DNA of 64,000 bases. Source: Cohnella herbarum. Lineage in GTDB: Bacteria > Bacillota > Bacilli > Paenibacillales > Paenibacillaceae. This document shows positions 45,506 through 64,000 of this stretch, piece after piece (the first letter of the stretch is position 1; every line of letters begins with the position of its first letter). Made by a program: the position numbers and the translations under genes. The stretch covers positions 1,488,001-1,552,000 of the forward strand of contig NZ_CP051680.1 in NCBI RefSeq assembly GCF_012849095.1, in the 5' to 3' direction. The notes under the pieces are model-generated. The model was not told where the DNA came from, ran no database searches, and was given only the letters and a program-made list of their open reading frames with translations.

Positions 45506-46792
45506 GTGAACAAACGGATTTCAATCGTTTATATCGTCGTCTTCATAGCCATTATTTTCGGTTTCGCGATTGCCAGCATTCTTAAACCGGATAGAGACAT
45601 CTCCGCTATTGAAAACAGAACGTTAAGCCAGTTGCCTAGGATCAGTTTGGAAGCCATTTCTACGCGCAGTTTTTTCGAAGATATGAACCAATACGCCAAT
45701 GATCAAATCGTGTTCCGCGATGAAATGGTAAGCATTTACCAAAATCAGCAAAATTCTAAGTTGTTCAACTCCATGCTGTTCGAAAACTTGCTTCGTGCTA
45801 ACAAGCCGCATAATCCCGAAGAGGGAACCGCCATTAAAGATTCGCGCATCGTATCCGGACTTGTCGTCACGAACCACAAGTGGATTATGCCCGTTACCGA
45901 CAAAGTCGTTCATACGGATAAAATCGACGAATCGACCGCCAAATTAAACGAAGCGGTTAAATTCGCCGAAGCGCGAAACACGGAAACGTATTTTGTTTTT
46001 AACCCGTCCAGAACCAAAGCGCTGATGCATTTATATCCTGAGTATTTGCAAACCGATGCTTATGCCCGTTCCAAAGACTATTTCTTATCCAAGCTCGATC
46101 CTAATATTAACGTCGTTAATATTGGCGACAAGTTCGATTCTTTCACGAAAGCGCAGTTGGAGGAACGCTACTTGGAAACCGACCACCATTGGAACATCAA
46201 GGGCGCCTTTACGGCTTATCAGGAAATGATAACCCAGATCTCTAACAAGTCGGCCTTATTCGAAGATACGCCGCTAACTCTGAACGATATCTACGTATCT
46301 CAATTAACGACTGGCAACTTCGAAGGCAGCTATAACATTCAAATCAATAATGCCGTAAGTCCCAGAAGAGCGGATAGAACGATCCTCTATGAACCGAAAG
46401 TGCCGTTCTCCTTTCACAATTTCGAAGTCATTAACAAAGACGGACAACAAACCGTTTCGAGCTTTAAAGATTTTTACGGTTTCAAAAAAGGGCGAAGCAC
46501 TTATTCTTATGGAGCCATCTACGGCGGCGACAGACGTAAAATCGCTTATGAGAATCCGAAAGCGAATAATCGATTAAACGTCTTGCTGCTGAAAGATTCT
46601 TTCATGAATCCTATAACGCCGTATTTGGCTCAACATTTTAACAAACTTACCGTTTACGATAGTCGTTATTATTCGGAATTCAGCCTGAAGAAGATTCTCG
46701 CGAGCGAGCATTACGATGTATTGATCATCGCATTCCACGACGACAATCTGTTCAGCGATACCTATAATTTCGAGAAGATTGCCGGAAATTAG
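45506..46792 (+). CDS. AlgJ/AlgX-like SGNH acetyltransferase (DHHW family)
   Basis: A 428-residue protein with an N-terminal signal anchor (VYIVVFIAIIFGFAIASILK) and an extracellular SGNH-type domain. The DHHW signature is intact in TDHHWNIKGAFTAY, and LLKDSFMNPITPYLAQHF supplies the serine region. It accepts acetyl from the MBOAT partner and puts it on a cell-surface glycan. GTG 45506 follows AAGGAG. Confidence 0.88.
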   Translation: MNKRISIVYIVVFIAIIFGFAIASILKPDRDISAIENRTLSQLPRISLEAISTRSFFEDMNQYANDQIVFRDEMVSIYQNQQNSKLFNSMLFENLLRANKPHNPEEGTAIKDSRIVSGLVVTNHKWIMPVTDKVVHTDKIDESTAKLNEAVKFAEARNTETYFVFNPSRTKALMHLYPEYLQTDAYARSKDYFLSKLDPNINVVNIGDKFDSFTKAQLEERYLETDHHWNIKGAFTAYQEMITQISNKSALFEDTPLTLNDIYVSQLTTGNFEGSYNIQINNAVSPRRADRTILYEPKVPFSFHNFEVINKDGQQTVSSFKDFYGFKKGRSTYSYGAIYGGDRRKIAYENPKANNRLNVLLLKDSFMNPITPYLAQHFNKLTVYDSRYYSEFSLKKILASEHYDVLIIAFHDDNLFSDTYNFEKIAGN

Positions 46793-46829
46793 GTTTATTC
46801 CCTTCCGTGAAACCAATGGAATAGCCCAA

Positions 46830-48776
46830 TCAGCTACGTAGCCAAACGCTCATCTCCCCGGGCTGGCGATTTCCCCACAAATAATAGGGAATCGCTTTGA
46901 AGCGGACGGGCCGCGTCTGGTCCTTGAGCGGCTGGTAAGGCTGTCCCTCCGACCAAACGGAATCGTCGACGACCAGCCCGTCGCCCTCTACGATAACGCA
47001 ACCGTCGAGCAGATCGGCGACAAAGCTCTCCGTAAGCTTCGGTTCTTCGGCAAGGGAGAACGAGGAAAGCGGAGTCACGTTATCCGCTTCTTCGACACAA
47101 TAGACGAGCGGGCCGCGCTGAATGGCGGCCTTGCCCGCGTCTGCTCGGATTAACGGGTGGGCGGCGATCAGCTTCGTCTCCAGCGGTAACAACCACTCCA
47201 CTCTATCGCCTTCCGACCAGATTTGCTCCGCTTTCGCATATCCGTTATCCACGCGATAATTTTGAGTTTCCCCGTTCACTTTCATAACCGGCAGGCGGCT
47301 CTGGAACCAGCCTGGTACGCGGAGCGCTAACTCAAACTCGGCGCCATCGCCGCCGTCCGGAATCGATACCTCGAATTCGACCTTGCCGTTCCAAGGCAGT
47401 TCCGACCGCTGGCGCAACGTCACGCTTCGTCCGGCAAGTTCGAACGAGACTTCGCTGCCGATAAACAAATGTGCATAGACCGTCTTGCCGTCATCGGATA
47501 CGTCGTAAATGTAATCGCTCAACGAGCTGAGCAGACGGGCTACGTTAGGCGGGCAGCAAGAACAGCCGAACCACTTCTGACGTACGGCCTTCACATGATG
47601 CCTGTCGGGATTTTTGGCGCTTGCGTCCGGCCATACCTCTAACGGGTTCACATAGAAAAAATGCTTGCCGTCTTTAGACATGCTTCCAAGCACATTGTTG
47701 TAAAGCGCCCTCTCCATTACGTCGGCGTATTCGCTCTTGGCTTCTATCTGCAGCATCCTTCGCGCCCAGAAGATCAAGCCGATCGAGGCGCAAGTTTCCG
47801 CGTAAACGGTATCGTTGGGCAGGTCGTAATCGAACGAGAATGCTTCGCCGAGATGCGTCGAACCGATGCCACCGGTAATGTACATTTGCTTGCCGGTCGT
47901 ATTAGCCCACAGTCGCTCGCAGGCTTCGCGCAGTTTGGCGTCACCTGTCAATCGCGCCAGATCGGCCATCGCCGAATACATGTAGACGGCCCGCACGGAG
48001 TGTCCGACGGCAGCCGATTGCTCTCGTACGGGAAGATGGCTTTGATACATTTCGAGATTGGGCTCGGACGTTGTTCCCTGTACCCAGTAGCTTGTCCGTC
48101 CGCGGCGCTCCCATTCCTCGAAGAAGTAGTTCGGCTTACTTCCCCGCTCATCGATGAAGTAGCGGCTTAGGTTCACATAACGTTGTTCTCCCGTCACCCG
48201 ATACAGCTTGACAAGAGCCAACTCGATCTCCTGATGGCCGCAATATCCCCGAATTTGGCCCGGCTTCGTTCCGAATTGGTTATCGATAAGGTCGGCGAAA
48301 CGGCAGACGATATCGAGCAGCTTGCGTTTTCCCGTGGCTTCGAAATAAGCGACGGCGGCTTCGATCATATGACCGGCGCAATATAACTCGTGAGCTTCGT
48401 AAAGATTGGTCCATTGTTTGCCTGGTTCCTTGATCGTATAGTACGTATTCAAGTATCCGTTCTCATGCTGGGCTTGACCGATCAAGTCGATCACGTCATC
48501 GGCGATCTTCTCGAGTTCAGGGTCCGGATGATGACGGAGCGAAAAGCCGACCGCCTCCAACCACTTGGCCAAATCGCTGTCTTGAAACACAAAGCCGCCG
48601 AATTCGCCTTCCTTCAGCCCTGCGGCAATACGGAAGTTTCGAATCGCATGGCTAGGTTCCGCGCCTTCGATCCGATCGTTCAGCGCTTCCCACTGGTAAG
48701 GGATGACGGTTTGGCGAACCAGCTCCGAGTAACCATTCCAAAAATCGTCTTGGATATATACTTTCGTCTCCCGCAT
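46830..48776 (-). CDS. Beta-L-arabinofuranosidase, GH127
   Basis: A 648-residue cytosolic GH127 enzyme ((alpha/alpha)6 barrel plus beta domains). The zinc and catalytic residues of HypBA1-type enzymes are visible: Glu and Cys in VYAETCASIG, and the Cys pair in WFGCSCCPPNVARL. The N-terminal pattern DDFWNGYSELVRQTVIPYQW also fits. ATG 48776 has GGAGG five bases upstream; a start at 48788 would place the ribosome site inside the gene. It releases beta-linked arabinofuranose, as found in plant glycoproteins. It is divergent from the AraC regulator, which probably controls it. Confidence 0.92.
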   Translation of the reverse strand: MRETKVYIQDDFWNGYSELVRQTVIPYQWEALNDRIEGAEPSHAIRNFRIAAGLKEGEFGGFVFQDSDLAKWLEAVGFSLRHHPDPELEKIADDVIDLIGQAQHENGYLNTYYTIKEPGKQWTNLYEAHELYCAGHMIEAAVAYFEATGKRKLLDIVCRFADLIDNQFGTKPGQIRGYCGHQEIELALVKLYRVTGEQRYVNLSRYFIDERGSKPNYFFEEWERRGRTSYWVQGTTSEPNLEMYQSHLPVREQSAAVGHSVRAVYMYSAMADLARLTGDAKLREACERLWANTTGKQMYITGGIGSTHLGEAFSFDYDLPNDTVYAETCASIGLIFWARRMLQIEAKSEYADVMERALYNNVLGSMSKDGKHFFYVNPLEVWPDASAKNPDRHHVKAVRQKWFGCSCCPPNVARLLSSLSDYIYDVSDDGKTVYAHLFIGSEVSFELAGRSVTLRQRSELPWNGKVEFEVSIPDGGDGAEFELALRVPGWFQSRLPVMKVNGETQNYRVDNGYAKAEQIWSEGDRVEWLLPLETKLIAAHPLIRADAGKAAIQRGPLVYCVEEADNVTPLSSFSLAEEPKLTESFVADLLDGCVIVEGDGLVVDDSVWSEGQPYQPLKDQTRPVRFKAIPYYLWGNRQPGEMSVWLRS

Positions 48777-48905
48777 AAGAACCTCCATGAAAATATAGAA
48801 TTTGACTCCTTATAGGTTCGAGTATATGCTTTTTCCAAAAGGCGAAATAGGAACGGAATAAACTTTTTTTTATACAAAATGACACAGAAGGTTGAGGGAA
48901 TTGGG

Positions 48906-49754
48906 ATGAGTGAAGCGTCCATCGTTGAGTTGCAAGCCCCTCCGCTCCCGTATTTCGTGGAAGCCGGGCGTGCGGAGTTCCGGGCCGGCGATCGTCATCC
49001 TAATCGAAGAAACCTCGGCATTTACGATCTGCTGATCATGGCCGAGGGAGAGCTTCATATCGGAGAAAACGGGAAAGAATGGTCTCTACGCGAAGGAGAT
49101 ACGTTATTATTGCTGCCTTACGGGGAGCATTATTCGGTCAAGCCATGCGAGCGGAAAACGGTGTTTTACTGGGTTCATTTTGAGCATGTAGCCAAGCAGC
49201 AAGGTGTTCACGCCGAAGAAACGGACACCCATGCATTGCTTCCGTTCGGTAATCCCTACTCGCTTCGAATTCCTAAACAGATTTGCTTGTCCAATCCCCA
49301 GATCGCCTTCGAACTGATGCGACAGCTGTTGCTGCTGCCGGTCGGCGACTCTTTCTGGGAAGAACAGCGCCTGTTTGCCGGAATTCTCGCCCTGCTGGAG
49401 GAAGGAAGGTCGAGCGGGACAAGCTCGTCCGCGACCCGGTTGGCGGAGAAGGCCGCAGCTTACCTTCAATTAAACTTCCGAAATGAAATCACGAACGAGA
49501 CTCTGGCTGAGGAGCTCCATTTTCATCCCAACTATATCGTTCGCTGCATGAAAATGAAGTACGGAGTCACGCCGATTCACTATTTGCTCGAGTTCCGCCT
49601 AGAGCGGGCCAAGCGTCTCCTCGTCTCTACGGAATGGTCGATTGAACGGATCGCGGAAGAAGTCGGTTTTCGGTACTCCCCCTACTTCTCATCCTCTTTC
49701 AAGCGCAGCGTCGGCCTGTCTCCTCTCAAATACCGTAAGCAGTATGTGAATTGA
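48906..49754 (+). CDS. AraC-family regulator
   Basis: A 282-residue regulator with an N-terminal cupin sensor (LLIMAEGELHIGENGKEWSL; LLLPYGEHYSVKP) and a C-terminal double HTH (TLAEELHFHPNYIVRCMKMK; SIERIAEEVGFRYSPYFSSS FKRSVGLSP). ATG 48906 has GAGGG at normal spacing; 27 bases earlier an ATG lacks one. It probably activates the divergent GH127 gene in response to an arabinoside. No operator was recognised in the 129-base divergent gap. Confidence 0.88.
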   Translation: MSEASIVELQAPPLPYFVEAGRAEFRAGDRHPNRRNLGIYDLLIMAEGELHIGENGKEWSLREGDTLLLLPYGEHYSVKPCERKTVFYWVHFEHVAKQQGVHAEETDTHALLPFGNPYSLRIPKQICLSNPQIAFELMRQLLLLPVGDSFWEEQRLFAGILALLEEGRSSGTSSSATRLAEKAAAYLQLNFRNEITNETLAEELHFHPNYIVRCMKMKYGVTPIHYLLEFRLERAKRLLVSTEWSIERIAEEVGFRYSPYFSSSFKRSVGLSPLKYRKQYVN

Positions 49755-49771
49755 CGGATGTGTTACATGAA

Positions 49772-50701
49772 TTACAATATGTAATTTAATTCGGATATAA
49801 TCGCATCTTTGGAAGAATATTGGGGCTGGTAGCCAATCATATCCGATTTCCTGTTAAGCGAATAGTAGTTTGATTTCAAGCCCGTGACCGAAGTAATTTC
49901 CGTTTCCTTTTCGATCTTGACCCTTAATCCATAGTTCTTCTCGAAAAATTCAAGCATCTGGAACTTACTGATCGGTTCTAAGCTATACACATCGAACACA
50001 TCGTTAATATTGCGAATATTAATGCATCTTTCGATTAACTCAACCAAATCCCTAGGATGTATGTAATCTCTTACCATGTCGTTACTTCCCGTTACAAACT
50101 CTTTATCTCGTTTTAAACTATTGACGATCTCGCTAAGAAAATAAGGCATTTTCAAATCGATATACCTGCTGAAAAATCCGAATACTCTTAAATCCACGAT
50201 ATTGAATTTAGAAAATGACCGATGCTTGGCCTCCGTATTCATTTTGGAAATGGTATAGTAATCCGTTGAAGAGATGTTATTGATGTTGATGACGGCTGTT
50301 TTATTCTGATCCGCGGGCGTATTGAAATTTGAACCGTAGGCAATGCCGCTGCTAAAATTGATATACAAAGTTTTGGGACTGTTTTCTATATACCTTAAGG
50401 CTAAATTATCGAATTCCTCGGTCAATCTGAATATATCCCCGCCTACTTTTTTCAATTTGGCAGGATCGCCGATCCCCACGCAATTCATAATCGCGTCGTA
50501 GTTCAGCTCCATGAAGGAACTAAAAGAATGGACTGCTATACCCGAGCAATCAGCGATCTCGGCTTTAAGGAAGGCTTGTAACCGTTCCTGATTTCTAGCA
50601 AACAGAAATAATTCGTAATTCGTATTTTTGGATAAACCCATTATGATATTTTTGGCAATATGCCCCGTGGCTCCTAAAATCGCAATTTTAGTTTTACTCA
50701 T
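49772..50701 (-). CDS. NAD-dependent epimerase/reductase, last gene of the sugar operon
   Basis: A 309-residue short-chain (extended SDR) enzyme: Rossmann motif GATGHIAKNI at residues 10-19, catalytic YYTISK, and a C-terminal domain with YIHPRDLVELIERCI. It resembles nucleotide-sugar reductases and epimerases. It is 22 bases downstream of the aldolase in a tight four-gene operon. I infer that it reduces or epimerises the sugar made by the operon; YerF-type reductases that finish yersiniose are a precedent for this class of step. Confidence 0.8.
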   Translation of the reverse strand: MSKTKIAILGATGHIAKNIIMGLSKNTNYELFLFARNQERLQAFLKAEIADCSGIAVHSFSSFMELNYDAIMNCVGIGDPAKLKKVGGDIFRLTEEFDNLALRYIENSPKTLYINFSSGIAYGSNFNTPADQNKTAVININNISSTDYYTISKMNTEAKHRSFSKFNIVDLRVFGFFSRYIDLKMPYFLSEIVNSLKRDKEFVTGSNDMVRDYIHPRDLVELIERCINIRNINDVFDVYSLEPISKFQMLEFFEKNYGLRVKIEKETEITSVTGLKSNYYSLNRKSDMIGYQPQYSSKDAIISELNYIL

Positions 50702-50723
50702 AGGATCTCCTTTCTATTCGTCA

Positions 50724-51728
50724 TTATCGTAATTGGGAAAGACTCACGGCAACCTCTAGAATCAAATCCTCCTGACCTGCGACTACTTTTCTTTTGCCCA
50801 ACTCGAAATAAATGTCTTTGGGATCCAGATTATATTGTTTGGCTATTCGCTCCACGGGTTTTGCAAATCCCGAAAATACACCCGCCATTCCGCTAACAAT
50901 GCTAGACGAGCTAATCGTCGGAACCGTTATGAAGTTTTGCTCGGCTACATCGGAAGCATCCAATAACCTGTATAAGTCAATTCCAGTCTCATATCCCGTT
51001 AATTGCAATACAGCGATGAGAACTTCTAATTGGGCATTTCCTGCCCCTGCTCCGAAGCCTTTCATTGTAGCATCTAATATAGTTGCCCCCTCTTCGATTG
51101 CGGCAACGGAATTTGCGATGGCCATTCCCAGATTATTATGAGCATGAAATCCGACTGGAATATCCAAGCTGCTTACCAAAGCTTTCATTTTCTCTTTTAC
51201 CTCTTCGGGTAAATAGGCACCAGCGGAATCCATGATTATGATGCCTTGAGCGCCATAGCTTTGCATTTTCTTCGCTTCGGCAATTAAGATCGAAGCTGGT
51301 GCCATATGCGACATCATTAGAACGCCGTAGACTTCTCTTTCCCTTGTACGGCAATGCTCGATATGCCTCTGCGTAACATCCGCTTCCGTACAATGCGAGG
51401 CAACTCGTATGACATCTACTCCGATATCTATCGCATTGTTTAGATCTTTCTTAATGGTAGCAAAGCCTGGAATCACATGAATGCCTAACTTCGTTCTCTT
51501 CAAATGTTCTCTGCATACTTCTAGCATTTGTTTATCCGAAACGAGACTCTCGCCTAATTGCAATGAAGATGCCCCGAGTCCGTTACCATGCCCGACTTCA
51601 ACGATGGGAATCGACGCTTCTTCTGCCATTCGGGTATAAGCGCTAATCTGCTCTACGGTTAATCGATGATGAATGGCATGTGATCCGTCCCTTAAGGTTG
51701 GGTCGCTAATTAAAATAGGTCTCATCAT
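50724..51728 (-). CDS. 4-hydroxy-2-oxovalerate aldolase (DmpG/MhpE family)
   Basis: A 334-residue class II aldolase that interconverts a 4-hydroxy-2-oxoacid with pyruvate and an aldehyde. The active-site start ISDPTLRDGSHAIHHRL, the metal-site VGFHAHNNLGMAIANSVAA and ILDATMKGFGAGAGNAQLE are all conserved. It lies 13 bases downstream of the acetaldehyde dehydrogenase, its usual partner in a channelling complex. In aromatic degradation the pair runs in the breakdown direction, but no aromatic ring-cleavage genes are here. The sugar-cluster setting suggests a biosynthetic role. Confidence 0.9.
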   Translation of the reverse strand: MMRPILISDPTLRDGSHAIHHRLTVEQISAYTRMAEEASIPIVEVGHGNGLGASSLQLGESLVSDKQMLEVCREHLKRTKLGIHVIPGFATIKKDLNNAIDIGVDVIRVASHCTEADVTQRHIEHCRTREREVYGVLMMSHMAPASILIAEAKKMQSYGAQGIIIMDSAGAYLPEEVKEKMKALVSSLDIPVGFHAHNNLGMAIANSVAAIEEGATILDATMKGFGAGAGNAQLEVLIAVLQLTGYETGIDLYRLLDASDVAEQNFITVPTISSSSIVSGMAGVFSGFAKPVERIAKQYNLDPKDIYFELGKRKVVAGQEDLILEVAVSLSQLR

Positions 51729-51741
51729 CTACCCCGCCCCT

Positions 51742-52611
51742 TTAGAGATTGTGTATTTTAGCGTATTCTTCCGCAATCGCAATAGCAGCACAGTTGATAA
51801 TGTCTAAATTACCTGCGTACGTAGGCAAATAATCGCCTAAGCCCTGTACTTTAACCATGACAACAATTCTCCCGTTCTCGATCGTAGGGGGAACAATCAG
51901 CTTGTATCCGGGTACGAAGCTTTGGATGGAGGTTATCATTTCATTCACGGAAGACAACAGAGCATCCATATCAGGCTTGTCGACTAACGCGAATATCGTT
52001 GTTTGCATATCGATGCAAGGATTTGCCGGATTTAAATTGAGGATCGCCTTTGCTCTATTACAACCCGAAAAGTGCTTGATTGCTTCTTCCGTCGTCTCAA
52101 TATATTCATCCAGGTTTGTTCTTGTTGCGGGTCCGGCGCTTTTCGAAGATATGCTCGATACCACTTCAATGTAATTCACGTTCTTTTGCGACTTACCGAT
52201 GGCATACGCAATCGGTAAAGAGGCTTGTCCGCCGCAAGTAATCATATTTACGTTGTCTCGATCCAGGCATTCTTTCAAATTGATTGCGGGGACGCACATT
52301 TCCCCGATATTGGACGGGGTCATATCGATTACGAATTTTCCTAATCTCTTCAATATGGGCGCGTGATCTAAGTGATCCCTTGCCGAGGTCGCGTCGACGA
52401 CTACATCGCATAAAGATGGATCCATCACAATGGAGTTGATGCTTGTATCATACGTGGGGACTCCTAAACTTCGAGCCTTTAGCATTCCTGGAGAATTCGC
52501 GTTTCTTCCTATAAACATCGTGCATTCCAGATAAGGCGATCGTATTATTTTTATAAGGAGATCCGTTCCTATATTGCCGCTTCCCACTATGGCCACTTTT
52601 AATTTATTCAT
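51742..52611 (-). CDS. Acetaldehyde dehydrogenase, acylating (DmpF/MhpF family)
   Basis: A 289-residue CoA-acylating aldehyde dehydrogenase. The Rossmann start KVAIVGSGNIGTDLLIKI is followed by MFIGRNANSPGM, and the catalytic Cys lies in NMITCGGQASLPIAYAI; the dimerisation/aldolase-contact part includes RTNLDEYIETTEEAI. It interconverts acyl-CoA and aldehyde with NAD(H). Next to the aldolase it could make an aldehyde from acyl-CoA and hand it on for chain extension with pyruvate. It is second in the four-gene operon, 18 bases after the TPP enzyme. Confidence 0.9.
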   Translation of the reverse strand: MNKLKVAIVGSGNIGTDLLIKIIRSPYLECTMFIGRNANSPGMLKARSLGVPTYDTSINSIVMDPSLCDVVVDATSARDHLDHAPILKRLGKFVIDMTPSNIGEMCVPAINLKECLDRDNVNMITCGGQASLPIAYAIGKSQKNVNYIEVVSSISSKSAGPATRTNLDEYIETTEEAIKHFSGCNRAKAILNLNPANPCIDMQTTIFALVDKPDMDALLSSVNEMITSIQSFVPGYKLIVPPTIENGRIVVMVKVQGLGDYLPTYAGNLDIINCAAIAIAEEYAKIHNL

Positions 52612-52629
52612 TTTTATCTCCCCAATAGT

Positions 52630-54396
52630 TCAAACGGAATTTGAGCGATATTCCTCTCTGGGTAGAAATGGATACATATCATCGTAAGGCATCGATATCA
52701 TCGTTCCATCCTCCATTTTCTTCGATGAAATCCTCGGTATTAATAATTGATCGGGGGGCGTGATGACCTCGCAGATCAATGATCCCTCATACGCAAATAG
52801 TTCCTCTAGTTTGAAGTCCAATTCTTCGAGGTTAGAAATTTTCATATATCCTAATCCGAACGTATCGGCTACCTTGTCAAATGGCGCAAAACTAACGCCG
52901 GTCGAAGGGCTTTCCCCGATGAGTCTTCCTTCCATAAAATTATGTTGAGTGTGCCGCATCAACAAATATCCGTTATTGCTGAATAAAATGAACTTGATAG
53001 GCAGCTTGTATTGATTAATCGTTTGCAACTCTTGAAGGTTCATCTGGAAAGATCCGTCCCCGGTTATGCAATATACTTCTTGATGTTTCAATGCAACAGA
53101 CACGCCTACCGCTCCGGGAGAATACCCCATCGTAGATAATCCGCCGGTGATGATGTGTCTTTGCCCGAATTTCACCTTAAAAGCTTGAGCATGAACATGA
53201 AAGCATGAACCTGTATCGACGACAAACACGTGATTGGACAAAGCCTTTTCCGAAAATTTAGAGACAAAACGATAGGAGTTAATGCCATTGCTATCATCGT
53301 CATACTCTGCGAGGTCAACCGGATATTTTAGCTTCCATTGTTGCGTTTGTTCTATCCATGCTAGTCTGCTTTCCATCGGAGGTAGCGACTTCGTTATTTT
53401 CTCGAAAAACTCGCCTGCATCTCCTAAGATAGATAAATCAGCGGAAACCGAAGGTTTATTGATTTCTTTCTCGTCGATATCAACATAGATTTTGTAAGCC
53501 TGACTCGCGAAATCTTGAAAATCATAACCTACCAAACCTATGCCAAGCCTACAACCTACCGTGATAAGGAGATCGCATTTTTGAATCGTAAAGTTAGCCG
53601 CGCGTTCCCCATAGGTGCCAGGTCTGCCAACAAAAAAAGAATGGCCATGGTCTATTAAGTCCATGCCTAATCTCGAAGTTAATACGGGGATTTTTGCTTG
53701 GTTAACAAAATCATGAAACTTGTCGATCGCATTGGATAATCTTACGCCTGCGCCGACTAATAGACAGGGTCTCTCGCTCGATAATAGGGCTTCCTTGACT
53801 TGTTTAATTTGTTGTTCAGTTATATGCGTCGTTATGCTCAACTCGGGCGTATACCCTTCAAATTCATCGGGATCGAATAAAGCACCCTGAATGTCTACTG
53901 GAACTTCAAGATATACGGGTCCGACTCTATTCGTCTTAGCCAAGTGAATGCATTTCTCTACTTCAACCTTCACTTTTGAAATATCATCGAGCAAAACCGC
54001 ATATTTGGTTATATAAGAAAACATGGGCAGCGAGTCGAATCCTTGCAAAGGAAATTGTCGGGGCCCTTTGATTTTAGCTAATGACACTTTTGAGTTTCCT
54101 GCCACAATAATCATAGGAGACGAGTCAATATAAGCACCGGCGACACCGGTTATCGAGTTTAATGCACCCGGTCCGGCAGTAACATAAGCGACCCCTAGTC
54201 GATTTGTAAATCTTCCGTATGCCTCTGCCGCCATTGCCGCTGCTTGCTCATGGTGACATGAAATATAGGTCTGATGTTTATGTTGATAAAGAGCATCCGT
54301 TAAATGCATGATCATTCCGCCGGTCACAAGAAAGACTTGCTCTCCGCCAGCTTCGTATAACGCATTCGTAATATAATCGGCAACGCGCATTCGCAT
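52630..54396 (-). CDS. Thiamine diphosphate enzyme, acetolactate-synthase-like
   Basis: A 588-residue ThDP enzyme with the full three-domain layout. The catalytic Glu is in ISCHHEQAAAMAAEAYGR, the central domain includes VGAGVRLSNAIDKF, and the ThDP-Mg motif is ITGDGSFQMNLQELQTINQY followed by FILFSNNGYLLMR. A housekeeping acetolactate synthase would be beside ilvN/ilvC; here it leads an operon with an acylating aldehyde dehydrogenase and an aldolase, beside CDP-hexose genes. YerE, a related ThDP enzyme, adds a two-carbon unit to CDP-dideoxy-4-ketohexose, so a C-C bond-forming role on a nucleotide sugar is the favoured inference. Confidence 0.85.
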   Translation of the reverse strand: MRMRVADYITNALYEAGGEQVFLVTGGMIMHLTDALYQHKHQTYISCHHEQAAAMAAEAYGRFTNRLGVAYVTAGPGALNSITGVAGAYIDSSPMIIVAGNSKVSLAKIKGPRQFPLQGFDSLPMFSYITKYAVLLDDISKVKVEVEKCIHLAKTNRVGPVYLEVPVDIQGALFDPDEFEGYTPELSITTHITEQQIKQVKEALLSSERPCLLVGAGVRLSNAIDKFHDFVNQAKIPVLTSRLGMDLIDHGHSFFVGRPGTYGERAANFTIQKCDLLITVGCRLGIGLVGYDFQDFASQAYKIYVDIDEKEINKPSVSADLSILGDAGEFFEKITKSLPPMESRLAWIEQTQQWKLKYPVDLAEYDDDSNGINSYRFVSKFSEKALSNHVFVVDTGSCFHVHAQAFKVKFGQRHIITGGLSTMGYSPGAVGVSVALKHQEVYCITGDGSFQMNLQELQTINQYKLPIKFILFSNNGYLLMRHTQHNFMEGRLIGESPSTGVSFAPFDKVADTFGLGYMKISNLEELDFKLEELFAYEGSLICEVITPPDQLLIPRISSKKMEDGTMISMPYDDMYPFLPREEYRSNSV

Positions 54397-54513
54397 AATG
54401 CCCCACTCCTCACCACGTACCTGAAGTGCTTTGTCCTAATTATCATATTATGGAAGCAAGTCAGATATGATTCGATGAAAGTCATTAATAGCATTAAATA
54501 AGTAGACAAAAAA

Positions 54514-54555
54514 AGCAGGTTCATAATGGTGATATCCGACCATAATGAACCTGCT
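54514..54555 (-). terminator. Terminator after the giant collagen-like gene
   Basis: A 17-bp stem (AGCAGGTTCATAATGGT with ACCATAATGAACCTGCT, one mismatch) and an 8-base loop are followed by a run of Ts on the minus strand. It separates the gene from the four-gene operon. Confidence 0.8.
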
Positions 54556-54571
54556 GAATAAAATTCCCGAT

Positions 54572-60183
<5,612 letters not shown>

Positions 60184-60224
60184 GGATAGACTGATTACTC
60201 AATGAAAGAAAAGAAATACGTTTT

Positions 60225-62486
60225 TCAACCAAACAAATCTTGAAAATATTTTTTATTATAGAGCATGCTTGGATGATTAGGATAATAAGACAAGGCTTTC
60301 TCGTTATGCTCGTAAGCTTTCTCATGTTGTCCTAGACGATCGTAACAAAGACACAACTGTAAATGAGGTAACCACGTCGAGTGAAATGGATTAACCAATC
60401 CCAAGTTGTTCTTATCGTGCCCCTGTTCCACAGCTACTGTAAACCAAAAAATCGCAGTTTCGTAATGCTTCTCTTCCAGAAAATATCCACCCAAAGCACA
60501 GCAAAATTCCGCTCTCGGTTTATCATAGGAAAGTGATCTGCACATCGCTTCAACCTGTTTCTCTCTTTGACCTAGACGACCATAACAATCGCCAATCCTC
60601 ATACAGGCTTGTATATTATCTTCAATCCAGCCTTGTTTTCCTTTCAAAAACTTCTCGTAATACAGAATGGCCTTTCTAAATTGAGAATGATCGCGAAGCT
60701 CGTTTGCGAAATAATATAAATCTCTTGGCGTGAACGTCTCTCCGGATTGCTCTCTTTTTAAGTAAATTTGCAAATTACGGTCTGTATACACTTTATTTTT
60801 GCTATGCGTAATGCCTATGTCGCTGTTCTGTATATTGCCGGAGACAGCAAGATATTCATGAACGGCGCCGATCCATTGAAAGTTGCGATCTCTGCGAACT
60901 AATCTGTTTCGCCGCAGGCTCGAAGACACATTCCCAGCCTCGTCGAAAGCAAGATAATAGTGCATGCTCACGCTATCGACGTCCATGGTAAGTTTCTTTT
61001 TCAGTTTAATGAACAACTGCCGATCTTTCTCTGCAATTCGATCATCTGCGTCCAACCACAGGATGTATTTTTTGGTTGCCTGACTAAAGGCATAGTTGCG
61101 GGCAGCCGAGAAATCGTCGATCCATTCGAAATCGAAAATTCGGTCCGTGAATTGTGCGGCAATCTCCTTCGTACGGTCGGTTGACCCTGTGTCCACAATA
61201 ACGATTTCATCTGCAATTCCCTTGACGGATGACAAACAATTAGCCAGTCCTTCCTCTTCGTTCCGAACAATCATGCACAGACTAATGGTAATCATCGTCC
61301 CGATTCCCCCTTCTTCCTCTGGTAAATCGTCCGGCACCGGATATCCTGCTGCTCTTCTGAACAGGTAACGGGAATACGGTTCATCGAAAGTTTCTATTTT
61401 TCGTTCATCAGTCAGAGAAACTCTATCCTCGCTGCCATCCATCGTAAATTTCAGGCTAGCCAGTTTCCTAATCATTTTCGCATCATAAACTTCATCTTGT
61501 TTCAGCCAAACGACATATTCCTGCGTTGCATTATCAAAGGCATATCGATAGGGACCTAGAGGGTCATCCAGTCCCGAATAACTAAATACAATCGAAGTAT
61601 AATTTTTTGCGATCTTAATCGTTTGATCGTTGGAGCCCAGATCAACAATGACGATCTCCTCGGCAATATCCAGAATGGAAAGAAGAGATTGATCTATAGT
61701 AAGCTCGGCATTTTTTAACACCATGCAGAAACTAACCGTATGCTCCGGTTTATACATAAGCTGATGAATATCTATGCCCCACTTTTCCGTTGCTTCCCGA
61801 CGATTTTGTTGCAAGAGCATAGCGAGGTTGTAACCTTCTAGATTAAGCATAGTCGCATGACCGAAATGGTGGATGAAGGAATCATGAACGACCCGTAACA
61901 AGTAACCGCCTTGCAACGCGCGTAAACATAGATCGTCGTCTTCGTAGTTCCCAAGTTCATAGCGTTCATCGAAGCCGCCTATCTCGTCTATTAGGCTTCT
62001 CTTCGCTAATAGACAGAACCCGATCAAACGACGCACGTCGGTATAACACCCTGCATTTTCTTGACAGTGACTTCTTGCAAAGGGTTCGAGCCCGCTCAAG
62101 TCGTTATAAGTAACCGGAATGCATTGATGTCCGCTTGAGTAGTTCGTAACGGGACCGACCAGTCCGACTCTTTCATTGTCATGCAGCACGCGCAACATGT
62201 TTTCTAACCAATGCATCGTTACGATCGTATCGTTATTTAAGAAGAGGATGTTGTCCCCCGTTGCCAGCTTGATTCCTTGGTTGCAGCCTTTAGCAAAACC
62301 AAGATTCTCTTCGTTCTCATGAACGATAACATCGGGTTGCCTTCTTAGATAAGTAACCGTGTCGTCCGTGGACCCGTTATCAACGACGATAAGTTCATAA
62401 TCGTTCGTATGGTGCCTAATGCTATTCAAACACTTTTCGGTTAATGGCAATTGATTATGCGTCAAAATCACGATGCTGGTTGTCAT
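60225..62486 (-). CDS. Multi-domain GT2 glycosyltransferase with TPR tail
   Basis: A 753-residue protein. Residues 1-~260 form a GT2 domain (SIVILTHNQLPLTEKCLNSI; ELIVVDNGSTDDT; LFLNNDTIV; LGNYEDDDLCLRA). Residues ~258-350 are a degenerate second copy (VSFCMVLKNAELTIDQSLLS; EIVIVDLGSNDQT) where the metal motif is replaced by WLKQDE. Residues ~405-620 are a third copy (TISLCMIVRNEEEGLANCLS; IVDTGSTDRT; LWLDADD). TPR-like helices finish the protein (KAILYYEKFLKG; HEKAYEHNEKALSYYPNHPS). It starts at ATG behind GAGGTGA. It lies 89 bases upstream of the collagen-like gene and is the best candidate for its glycosyltransferase. Confidence 0.88.
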   Translation of the reverse strand: MTTSIVILTHNQLPLTEKCLNSIRHHTNDYELIVVDNGSTDDTVTYLRRQPDVIVHENEENLGFAKGCNQGIKLATGDNILFLNNDTIVTMHWLENMLRVLHDNERVGLVGPVTNYSSGHQCIPVTYNDLSGLEPFARSHCQENAGCYTDVRRLIGFCLLAKRSLIDEIGGFDERYELGNYEDDDLCLRALQGGYLLRVVHDSFIHHFGHATMLNLEGYNLAMLLQQNRREATEKWGIDIHQLMYKPEHTVSFCMVLKNAELTIDQSLLSILDIAEEIVIVDLGSNDQTIKIAKNYTSIVFSYSGLDDPLGPYRYAFDNATQEYVVWLKQDEVYDAKMIRKLASLKFTMDGSEDRVSLTDERKIETFDEPYSRYLFRRAAGYPVPDDLPEEEGGIGTMITISLCMIVRNEEEGLANCLSSVKGIADEIVIVDTGSTDRTKEIAAQFTDRIFDFEWIDDFSAARNYAFSQATKKYILWLDADDRIAEKDRQLFIKLKKKLTMDVDSVSMHYYLAFDEAGNVSSSLRRNRLVRRDRNFQWIGAVHEYLAVSGNIQNSDIGITHSKNKVYTDRNLQIYLKREQSGETFTPRDLYYFANELRDHSQFRKAILYYEKFLKGKQGWIEDNIQACMRIGDCYGRLGQREKQVEAMCRSLSYDKPRAEFCCALGGYFLEEKHYETAIFWFTVAVEQGHDKNNLGLVNPFHSTWLPHLQLCLCYDRLGQHEKAYEHNEKALSYYPNHPSMLYNKKYFQDLFG

Positions 62487-62523
62487 TTGTTCACCTCAAT
62501 ATCAGAAAGCTTACTTTCCACGG

Positions 62524-63624
62524 CTAATCGGTTGGCTTAACACTTTCGCGCGAATATGCATCTAATTGTTCTAAACAAAGAGCCTTCATATCGGCTTGTT
62601 TCCGGTAAGCTTGAAACCAATCCACCGTCTTTTCCAATGCCGTCTTCACGTCCCATACCGGCTCCCAGCCCAAAGCGCGCCTTGCTTTCGAACTATCCAA
62701 ACTAAGATTGTCGGCTTCATGGGGATTGCTCCCTTGCGACAATTCATAGAAGTCATACTCTCCCCAGAGCGTTCCGATCGTCTGGACCAACCACTCCACG
62801 CTTTTCGAGTTCGCATCCATAGGTCCGAAATTCCACGCATCCCCGAATTCCGTTCCGCGCTCTACCATCTTTTGCGCTAACAGCAAATAGCCCTGCAACG
62901 GCTCTAGTACATGCTGCCAAGGCCGAGTAGCCTGAGGATGGCGTACTTCCAGCTTACTTCCGGACAATAAAGCCCGCATACTGTTAGGAACGAGTCGATC
63001 TTCAGACCAATCGCCTCCTCCGATCACATTGCCCGCTCTTGCAGTGGCTACGCTAAGACCATGATTCGCATAATCCTTATGATGAAAAAAGCTGTTTCGA
63101 AAAGAAGCGGTAACGAGCTCGGAACATGCTTTACTGTTGGAATAAGGGTCAAAACCGCCCAGCCTGTCGATTTCACGGTAGCCCCAGGTCCATTCCTTAT
63201 TTTCATAACACTTGTCCGTAGTCACATTAATAATGGCTTTAATGCCTACTCCGTCCCTAATCGACGTTCTCGCCGCATCGAGGAGATTAACGGCTCCAAG
63301 CACGTTGACCTCAAAGGTTTCTACTGGATATTGATAAGAATATCGGACAAAAGGTTGAGCGGCCATGTGGAAAATAACTTCGGGTTGCGTGTCTTGAATA
63401 GTATCTAGCAACGCTGTTCGATTTCGAATATCTGCCGTCACGGAGCGCATCGTTTGTTCAAGTTTGCATAATGAATGCAAATTCGGCGAGGTCATCGGTT
63501 CCAACGCGTAACCGGTTACTTCTGCTCCTAAAGACTGAAGCCACAAACTAAGCCAACTTCCCTTAAATCCCGTATGTCCGGTAATCAACACTTTTTTGCG
63601 CGACCAGAAATCGTTACTTGGCAT
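62524..63624 (-). CDS. rfbG: CDP-glucose 4,6-dehydratase
   Basis: A 366-residue extended-SDR enzyme that makes CDP-4-keto-6-deoxyglucose, the entry point to 3,6-dideoxy and branched sugars. The Rossmann motif is ITGHTGFKGSWLSLWL, followed by HMAAQPFVRYSYQYPVETFE and the active-site TTDKCYENKEWTWGYRE, which is distinctive for this family. C-terminal RRALGWEPVWDVKTALEKTV fits. ATG 63624 follows GAGGAA. It is directly downstream of the cytidylyltransferase that supplies its substrate. Confidence 0.93.
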   Translation of the reverse strand: MPSNDFWSRKKVLITGHTGFKGSWLSLWLQSLGAEVTGYALEPMTSPNLHSLCKLEQTMRSVTADIRNRTALLDTIQDTQPEVIFHMAAQPFVRYSYQYPVETFEVNVLGAVNLLDAARTSIRDGVGIKAIINVTTDKCYENKEWTWGYREIDRLGGFDPYSNSKACSELVTASFRNSFFHHKDYANHGLSVATARAGNVIGGGDWSEDRLVPNSMRALLSGSKLEVRHPQATRPWQHVLEPLQGYLLLAQKMVERGTEFGDAWNFGPMDANSKSVEWLVQTIGTLWGEYDFYELSQGSNPHEADNLSLDSSKARRALGWEPVWDVKTALEKTVDWFQAYRKQADMKALCLEQLDAYSRESVKPTD

Positions 63625-63630
63625 TGTTCC

Positions 63631-64000
63631 TCATCCGTTTCTATTCCAGGAGGCTTTTCCCGTTTTCCACAGATCCTCCAGGTAGTTTTTGTCGCGAAGG
63701 GTGTCCATGGGATGCCAAAAACCGGTATGATGGTACGCCATCAGCTCGCCGGATTTGGCCAGAGACTCCAACGGTTCTTTTTCCCATACCGTCGCATCCC
63801 CTTCGATAAAGTCAAATACTTCAGGCTGCAATACAAAAAAACCGCCGTTGACCCATCCTCCGTCCCCCTTTGGCTTCTCCACGATTTTTAGCACCTGACT
63901 CTCGCCGGAAATGTGCAAAGCCCCGAATCGTCCGATAGGCTGCGTCGCGGTCAACGTTGCCATTTTCCCATGCGAATGATGGAAATCGACTAGCTTTCCA
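63631..64000 (-). CDS. rfbF: Glucose-1-phosphate cytidylyltransferase, 5' part outside the window
   Basis: The C-terminal 122 residues of RfbF, which makes CDP-glucose from glucose-1-phosphate and CTP. Visible segments: DFHHSHGKMATLTATQPIGR, ALHISGESQVLKIVEKPKGD, WVNGGFFVLQPEVFDFIEGD and AYHHTGFWHPMDTLRDKNYL. The known family is about 257 residues, so the first half lies to the right of the window. It ends six bases before rfbG, so the two are cotranscribed. Confidence 0.92.
   Translation of the reverse strand, partial: GKLVDFHHSHGKMATLTATQPIGRFGALHISGESQVLKIVEKPKGDGGWVNGGFFVLQPEVFDFIEGDATVWEKEPLESLAKSGELMAYHHTGFWHPMDTLRDKNYLEDLWKTGKASWNRNG

Follow-up and report, generated by a model that had tools for sequence, protein, structure and literature searches.

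A putative pathway for an erwiniose-type branched sugar beside a BclA-like collagen gene in Cohnella herbarum

Carbon-branched sugars formed by YerE-like enzymes have been described from cell-surface structures such as lipopolysaccharide and mycobacterial glycolipids, and the acceptor of both YerE and ErwE is the cytidine diphosphate (CDP) sugar CDP-4-keto-3,6-dideoxyglucose (PMC12247030). ErwE of Pectobacterium atrosepticum couples 4-hydroxy-2-oxo acids to this acceptor, with 4-hydroxy-2-oxobutanoate, -pentanoate and -hexanoate as preferred donors, to give erwiniose (PMC12247030), which the accessible part of PMC8657720 describes as a ten-carbon branched sugar. In the Bacillus cereus group, short O-glycans that contain special sugars are attached to BclA-type stalks, according to the available parts of PMC11952670 and PMC6947953. 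Here we analyse a stretch of 64,000 nucleotides of Cohnella herbarum (the window; bases 1,488,001-1,552,000 of the 8.5 Mb genome) holding a four-gene operon for a thiamine diphosphate (ThDP)-dependent enzyme, the acylating acetaldehyde dehydrogenase DmpF, the aldolase DmpG and a short-chain dehydrogenase/reductase (SDR). The operon lies downstream of an open reading frame (ORF) for a collagen-like protein, and its product is probably the branch of an erwiniose-type sugar carried by this BclA-like protein.

The operon, its probable acceptor sugar and its occurrence in other genomes

Four minus-strand ORFs, separated by gaps of 18, 13 and 22 bp, make up the operon (Table 1). A preliminary description of this DNA had called it tight, and coordinates, spacing and family assignments were all confirmed. 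Upstream, on the same strand, follow in order a terminator-like repeat, the collagen protein, an enzyme with family 2 glycosyltransferase regions and tetratricopeptide repeats (the GT2/TPR enzyme), RfbG, RfbF and RfbH. The proximity of rfbF and rfbG had been noticed before and was borne out, with RfbF running off the window edge. RfbH past that edge, the BclA_C domain on the collagen ORF and the known chemistry of ErwE were all absent from the earlier account.

Among solved proteins, the best relative of the ThDP enzyme is 8rph (383 bits; the best acetolactate synthase gave 238 bits), identified in the accessible part of PMC12188165 as JanthE, a YerE-like ThDP enzyme. In a midpoint-rooted tree the enzyme groups with JanthE, whose branch is long, and apart from two acetohydroxyacid synthases (AHAS). 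The activating Glu (HEQ) and the ThDP-binding motif GDG...NN are kept, GDG standing where JanthE has CDG, and Tyr268 and Tyr297 of JanthE are conserved in the alignment. The enzyme is predicted to be a YerE-like carboligase. Its reading as nothing but an acetolactate synthase, raised in the preliminary description, was rejected: it scores 362.8 bits with TIGR00118, below the cut-off of 538.35, and has Gly at the column of the AHAS acceptor-site Arg, a second-substrate residue that we take to be Arg276 of AHAS II. Arg occupies this column in both AHAS references and in the enzymes of loci L040-L042. Two other genes in the genome pass the TIGR00118 cut-off (828 and 764 bits).

Against the solved structure 3bcx, an E1 enzyme, RfbH scored 624 bits; E1 His220 and four Cys are conserved in it. 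We take His220 to be the 3-dehydrase residue standing in for the aminotransferase Lys, and the four-Cys pattern to be the Fe-S motif. Since His and Fe-S Cys are kept, the acceptor is likely to be CDP-4-keto-3,6-dideoxyglucose. In the SDR, the YxxxK pair (Y149, K153) is invariant and the glycine-rich start kept in comparison with seven homologues. A profile search gave weak matches, with E about 1e-6, to ArnA and to 8v4g/8v4h, an NADP-dependent reductase from Campylobacter that takes part in CDP-glucitol synthesis; the latter is also nearest to the predicted SDR model (mean predicted local distance difference test score 79), at 15-16% identity. This fits an enzyme that would reduce a ketone on a CDP-sugar, the corresponding step in yersiniose synthesis being presumably carried out by YerF, also an SDR.

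From the gene order, families, residue patterns and co-occurrence observed, we infer the reactions, acyl chain length (acetyl being favoured), stereochemistry, carrier protein and spore location of the following scheme. RfbF and RfbG would yield CDP-4-keto-6-deoxyglucose, from which RfbH would remove O-3 to give CDP-4-keto-3,6-dideoxyglucose. DmpF would convert acetyl-CoA to acetaldehyde and hand it to DmpG, which would join it to pyruvate, forming 4-hydroxy-2-oxopentanoate, for which we predict the 4R configuration. After decarboxylating this acid, the ThDP enzyme would transfer the remaining four-carbon acyl group to the ketosugar at C-4, creating a tertiary alcohol, and reduction of the branch ketone by the SDR would produce CDP-3,6-dideoxy-4-C-(1,3-dihydroxybutyl)hexose, with ten carbons. 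The GT2/TPR enzyme, perhaps with two acyltransferase-GT2 fusion proteins, would then build the sugar onto the Thr-rich collagen stalk.

The survey of genomes proposed in the preliminary description was run on 394 genomes of the organism's own family, and 15-20 kb were fetched around all 23 DmpG loci besides its own. Genome counts are lower bounds, at most 3 candidates per genome having been scored for the ThDP enzyme, 5 for DmpG and 4 for RfbH. The ThDP enzyme was found in at least 8 of the 394 genomes (E<=1e-170) and DmpG in at least 24 (E<=1e-60), 13 of them at 65-100% identity and 11 at 44-48%. In all eight genomes of the ThDP search, DmpF and DmpG adjoin the ThDP gene or lie no more than a few kb away; in locus L014 two genes stand between ThDP and DmpF. 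Two further loci, L013 and L019, found through DmpG, combine DmpF and DmpG with a divergent ThDP enzyme (38-40% identity). As two of the ten genomes (G325 and G205) were thus found through DmpG, the test of whether DmpF and DmpG accompany the ThDP enzyme rests on the eight. Both loci also have an added HpcH/HpaI-type aldolase (L013 13667-14485, L019 12291-13064), making two pyruvate aldolases per cluster; the aldol chain may there be extended twice before transfer, for a longer branch.

RfbH is present in 10/10 genomes with ThDP, DmpF and DmpG, in 0/3 with the same DmpG and no ThDP enzyme, and in at least 60/394 overall. The hypergeometric chance of this is 3e-9 counted by genome and 0.008 by genus, kinship being uncorrected. 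The three loci that complete the 13 (L022-L024) have DmpG with neither ThDP enzyme nor RfbH; DmpF turned up in two of them, L022 and L024. Genes for SDR, cupin and MEKHLA-domain proteins are scattered among the three, suggesting another use of the same aldolase. Outside the family, ThDP enzyme, DmpF and DmpG occur together in 4/4 confirmed loci (a cyanobacterium, an Omnitrophota bacterium and two Lachnospiraceae). Homologues of RfbF, RfbG and RfbH lie on the contig in three of these four, the fourth contig being 6.7 kb long; the RfbG homologue of L009 is only 30% identical. Altogether, the logic of the pathway as first sketched is upheld by the YerE-like character of the ThDP enzyme, by DmpF and DmpG at its side (8/8 and 4/4) and by RfbH (10/10). 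The claimed novelty of the chain-extension unit did not survive, since ErwE is reported to add a 4-hydroxy-2-oxo acid unit in erwiniose synthesis (PMC12247030).

Eight further stretches around RfbH were examined. Two of them, L041 and L042, join RfbH-RfbF-RfbG to a ThDP enzyme of 32% identity without DmpF or DmpG, and neither belongs to the 24 DmpG genomes. Both have close homologues (67-82%) of the window glycosyltransferase, and L041 has a collagen-like ORF. This arrangement would be expected if, in the window lineage, the ThDP-DmpF-DmpG module had replaced a shorter-branch enzyme. Elsewhere in the C. herbarum genome (L007 8676-11247; C1 7,253,676-7,256,247), a second RfbF (66%) precedes two abutting ORFs of 236 and 374 aa that make up an L042-type ThDP enzyme, either a split gene or a frameshift; no RfbG or RfbH homologue was found in that stretch. 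A third RfbF (59%) accompanies an RfbG-like gene in two pieces at L008 8667-10509 (C1 about 4.67 Mb), and weak matches to glycosyltransferases and to the RfbH fold occur close by.

The aldolase and its predicted stereochemistry

DmpF and DmpG exceed their family cut-offs (TIGR03215, 384 bits against 282; TIGR03217, 380 bits against 286). DmpF keeps the catalytic Cys context TCGGQ and DmpG has the communication domain DmpG_comm (PF07836, 88 bits). The DmpG catalytic set R/D/H/H/H (Arg, Asp, His and the metal His) is kept in every complete sequence examined. The pair that fixes 4S selectivity in BphI, Leu87 and Tyr290, is absent from window DmpG, which has His and Phe instead (88H and 291F in DmpG numbering). 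Among sugar-linked DmpGs, Phe is found at 290 in 14/14, and position 87 is His in 11, Tyr in 2 and Phe in 1. The other DmpG clade has Leu/Tyr in 39/39 complete sequences (11/11 from the family and 28/28 from other Bacillota; L076, a partial sequence, was excluded from this count and from the tree). Window clade and aromatic-type group are split in the tree with 100/100 support. The 120 nearest homologues of window DmpG all have Phe, a figure that is not independent evidence because they were picked by similarity to the query; at the other position there are 103 His, 8 Phe and 9 Leu.

Wild-type BphI accepts only the 4S enantiomer, L87N/Y290F and L87W/Y290F accept only 4R, and Y290F alone loses selectivity, according to the accessible parts of PMC3962088, PMC4012138 and PMC3962226; the mutants named there lack His at 87, the residue of window DmpG. 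Because window DmpG is changed at the two positions whose engineered change inverts BphI, it is predicted to be 4R-selective. For erwiniose, the same 4R sense would follow from the chemical name as we presume it to be. Starting from the name given in PMC5706390, we likewise derived the sense of the 4R acid for the aldol carbon of caryophyllose.

A wider reading can be offered tentatively. The DmpG clade, its sugar-linked members above all, may be a natural 4R-selective family, changed where engineers inverted BphI. Combined with DmpF and a YerE-like enzyme, it might act as a portable module for chain extension. This module would have taken the place of a shorter-branch enzyme in glycoprotein islands of Paenibacillaceae and would equip BclA-like spore fibres with a branched sugar of ten carbons, with the double extension suggested for L013 and L019 as a variant.

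The aldolase occurs in other settings as well. On two Streptomyces plasmids (L079 9060-12311, L080 9096-12245), DmpF and DmpG stand beside beta-ketoacyl-acyl carrier protein (ACP) synthase III and ACP, and probably feed a small-molecule pathway. On plasmids of Leisingera and Phaeobacter (L077, L078), DmpF and a DmpG with His/Cys are accompanied by genes for ATP-grasp, FAD/NAD(P)-binding and aminotransferase proteins. A close DmpG homologue (P0212, 69%) is named as coming from an assembly of Candidatus Methanoperedens, an archaeon, so that wide horizontal spread of the aldolase is possible.

The collagen protein and the surrounding genes

The collagen ORF has Thr in third place in 515 of 542 Gly-X-Y triplets, and its last 140 residues, scanned alone, match BclA_C (PF18573) with E 7.9e-42 and 142.6 bits (cut-off 38). 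With collagen repeats and this domain, the product is predicted to be a BclA-type glycoprotein, which would be located on the spore surface. The GT2/TPR enzyme resembles MftF and SunS-type peptide glycosyltransferases, with scores below the cut-offs, and we propose that it glycosylates the Thr residues of the collagen protein. Divergent from RfbH and adjoining it are the two acyltransferase-GT2 fusion genes, of the hexapeptide acyltransferase type. A scan for sigma-K-like promoters with at most one mismatch scored 6/20 collagen-like rows (the window's own gene counted twice), 6/13 RfbH-like genes, 2/13 ThDP genes and 36/201 other genes; the slight excess for RfbH-like genes was not used.

Table 1. 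Features of the operon region (window numbering; L005 is a fetched stretch that includes the genes past the window edge)
Feature	Position	Strand	Remarks
Extended SDR, proposed NADP-dependent branch-ketone reductase	49772..50701	-	309 aa; Epimerase PF01370
4-hydroxy-2-oxovalerate aldolase, DmpG/BphI type, communication domain	50724..51728	-	334 aa; HMGL-like + DmpG_comm, TIGR03217
Acylating acetaldehyde dehydrogenase, DmpF/BphJ type	51742..52611	-	289 aa; AcetDehyd-dimer, TIGR03215
ThDP-dependent YerE-like carboligase (proposed branching enzyme)	52630..54396	-	588 aa; TPP_enzyme N/M/C
Inverted repeat, 17-nt arms, 8-nt loop, then T run on minus strand	54514..54555	-	Likely terminator of BclA-like gene
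BclA-like collagen glycoprotein ORF (predicted)	54572..60136	-	1,854 residues; PF01391; (Gly-X-Thr)n composition
BclA_C domain (C-terminal domain of exosporium BclA)	54578..54955	-	PF18573
Glycosyltransferase, two GT2 regions + TPRs	60225..62486	-	PF00535, TPR
RfbG, CDP-glucose 4,6-dehydratase	62524..63624	-	TIGR02622, 493 bits, cut-off 278
RfbF, glucose-1-phosphate cytidylyltransferase	63631..64000, ends 64410 beyond window	-	TIGR02623, 417 bits; L005 5631-6410
RfbH, 3-dehydrase of 3,6-dideoxyhexoses	64407-65756, outside window		PRK15407, 745 bits; L005 6407-7756

At the 3' end of the operon lie a gene of the glycoside hydrolase family 127 (GH127) beta-L-arabinofuranosidase type and a divergent AraC-type regulator (window 46830-49754). 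An Rfam scan of 46000-64000 gave no match. A consensus promoter and terminator scan returned 7 terminator-like sites against 11.1 in shuffled sequence, and the hairpin at 54514-54555 was not among them.

Competing explanations and known systems

Several observations weigh against an erwiniose-type sugar on the collagen protein. Between the BclA-like gene and the four-gene operon lies the terminator-like repeat, so that the operon would have its own promoter. BclA_C emerged only from a separate scan of the C-terminal piece, the full ORF giving Collagen only, and among five collagen-like proteins scanned with Pfam (the window's own and four of L020, one of them scanned in part) it was clear only in the window's own. 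Of the ten genomes with ThDP enzyme, DmpF and DmpG, five have a collagen-like ORF within the fetched stretch; the SDR is absent from that stretch in three (L014, L020 and L021). In four of the ten, RfbH and the ThDP gene are no more than about 10 kb apart; in another four the distance is 28-45 kb, and in two RfbH is on another contig. Its usual reductase partner E3 (RfbI/AscD type) was sought through FAD_binding_6, for which the C. herbarum genome has no match at E<=1e-8; 3/10 genomes searched have one, in frames of 419 residues, and 6/9 besides this genome have none. As to the aldolase, the Tyr-less pattern also occurs in 7/7 members of the same clade that have no sugar link (His/Phe in L022-L024, Phe/Phe in the two Streptomyces plasmid sequences, His/Cys in the two Roseobacter plasmid sequences), and it counts as one evolutionary event because the change falls on a single split of the tree. 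The pairing of Leu with Phe in 9 of the 120 nearest homologues predicts loss of selectivity there, as in BphI Y290F.

The alternative that survives best, an unlikely one, keeps the pathway and changes its substrate to another acyl-CoA, for example propionyl-CoA with a five-carbon branch, or has a polysaccharide, secreted or in the cell wall, as carrier of the product. The cyanobacterium and the Omnitrophota bacterium also carry the cassette, and DmpF has Leu at both residues taken as equal to BphJ I171 and I195, positions which we assume to be those used for chain-length comparison, so the chain-length pocket is unreadable from them. ErwE takes 4-hydroxy-2-oxohexanoate too (PMC12247030). On the other side, the equivalent of BphI Leu89 is still Ile in window DmpG, and not the Ala that opens the BphI pocket to longer aldehydes (accessible parts of PMC3962088, PMC4012138 and PMC3962226); moreover, the Thr-rich BclA-like gene and a peptide-type glycosyltransferase lie between RfbG and the operon.

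It is very improbable that the operon is catabolic or serves overflow, with DmpF and DmpG splitting a 4-hydroxy-2-oxo acid into acetyl-CoA and pyruvate while the ThDP enzyme acts as a minor acetolactate synthase. The two enzymes are, as is generally known, best known from meta-cleavage pathways; aromatic-type neighbours were present at all four Pfam-checked loci (L025, L030, L031 and L035) of the 11 with low-identity DmpG; and beyond the glycan island (L005 10911-14700) lies an operon resembling those for sugar-acid breakdown, with SDR, fumarylacetoacetate hydrolase (FAH)-type hydrolase, zinc alcohol dehydrogenase and enolase-family dehydratase genes. However, that aromatic-context group is the one split from window DmpG in the tree, the operon contains no ring-cleavage, hydratase or decarboxylase gene, and the AHAS cut-off, the missing acceptor Arg and the two passing AHAS genes speak against the role given to the ThDP enzyme. 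Aromatic catabolism in particular was rejected for the window operon: its DmpG belongs to a separate clade, and the family scans, covering window 46830-63624 and onward to L005 17342, met no ring-cleavage gene among the neighbours. The preliminary description had remarked on this lack, and the common association with aromatic genes that it named as a counter-argument was not seen for this clade in the loci examined.

There is hardly any likelihood that the action of the ThDP enzyme ends with decarboxylation of 4-hydroxy-2-oxopentanoate and so yields 3-hydroxybutanal, which after oxidation would acylate an amino sugar in the manner of anthrose. Hexapeptide acyltransferase-glycosyltransferase fusions do adjoin RfbH, but RfbH itself has what we presume to be the 3-dehydrase His and not the aminotransferase Lys, and the cluster genes scanned include no ordinary aldehyde dehydrogenase, acyl-CoA ligase or further aminotransferase-type gene. 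The anthrose of BclA in Bacillus anthracis, 2-O-methyl-4-(3-hydroxy-3-methylbutamido)-4,6-dideoxyglucose in the accessible part of PMC6947953, does bear a hydroxyacyl group; YerE-like enzymes are, however, known carboligases (PMC12247030).

For the erwiniose-type sugar, the chemistry is of a known kind; what is unusual is its place in a BclA-like glycoprotein island of a Bacillota, together with the stereochemical prediction. A literature search, with several primary papers outside its reach, found no description of DmpF and DmpG as donor supply for a branched sugar. As far as our searches go, the link to a BclA-like island in Bacillota, the partnership of DmpF and DmpG with RfbH and the predicted stereochemistry are new. 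If the proposal is true, carbon-branched sugars occur on the spore surfaces of a Bacillota and the origin of the branch donor is explained, from acetyl-CoA and pyruvate. The residue swap could then be a source of natural aldolases so far obtained by engineering, and the survey points to DmpF and DmpG as a building-block module in synthesis, beyond aromatic breakdown.

The locus shares with the erwiniose system a YerE-like ThDP enzyme and, by prediction, the 4-hydroxy-2-oxo acid donor and the CDP-4-keto-3,6-dideoxyglucose acceptor, a likeness drawn from the reported chemistry and not from the ErwE sequence; erwiniose belongs to a Gram-negative O-antigen or exopolysaccharide, whereas here a Bacillota has a BclA-like protein in the same island. 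Yersiniose A, of YerE and YerF, is alike in its SDR reduction (the role of YerF being our assumption) and differs in its pyruvate donor, two-carbon branch and lack of DmpF and DmpG. Its CDP-4-keto-3,6-dideoxyglucose acceptor and ThDP-dependent branching would likewise be in common (PMC12247030). The DmpFG and BphIJ pairs of aromatic catabolism agree with the window pair, which passes the curated cut-offs of both families and keeps the catalytic residues as well as the communication domain; they differ in belonging to a separate clade and in having Leu87/Tyr290 in place of His (Tyr, Phe)/Phe, and the window pair would run in the direction of synthesis. The glycosylation of BclA with anthrose or cereose, known from the Bacillus cereus group, also sets a BclA_C collagen with a Thr-rich stalk beside sugar genes, as far as the available parts of PMC11952670 and PMC6947953 go, but with a 4-amino-4,6-dideoxy sugar where the window is predicted to make a CDP-derived, carbon-branched one. 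Finally, caryophyllose of Mycobacterium marinum lipooligosaccharide (MMAR_2332) resembles the predicted product in being a 3,6-dideoxyhexose with a long hydroxylated branch at C-4, and its ThDP enzyme has an ErwE-like donor preference (PMC12247030, PMC5706390); its branch has six carbons.

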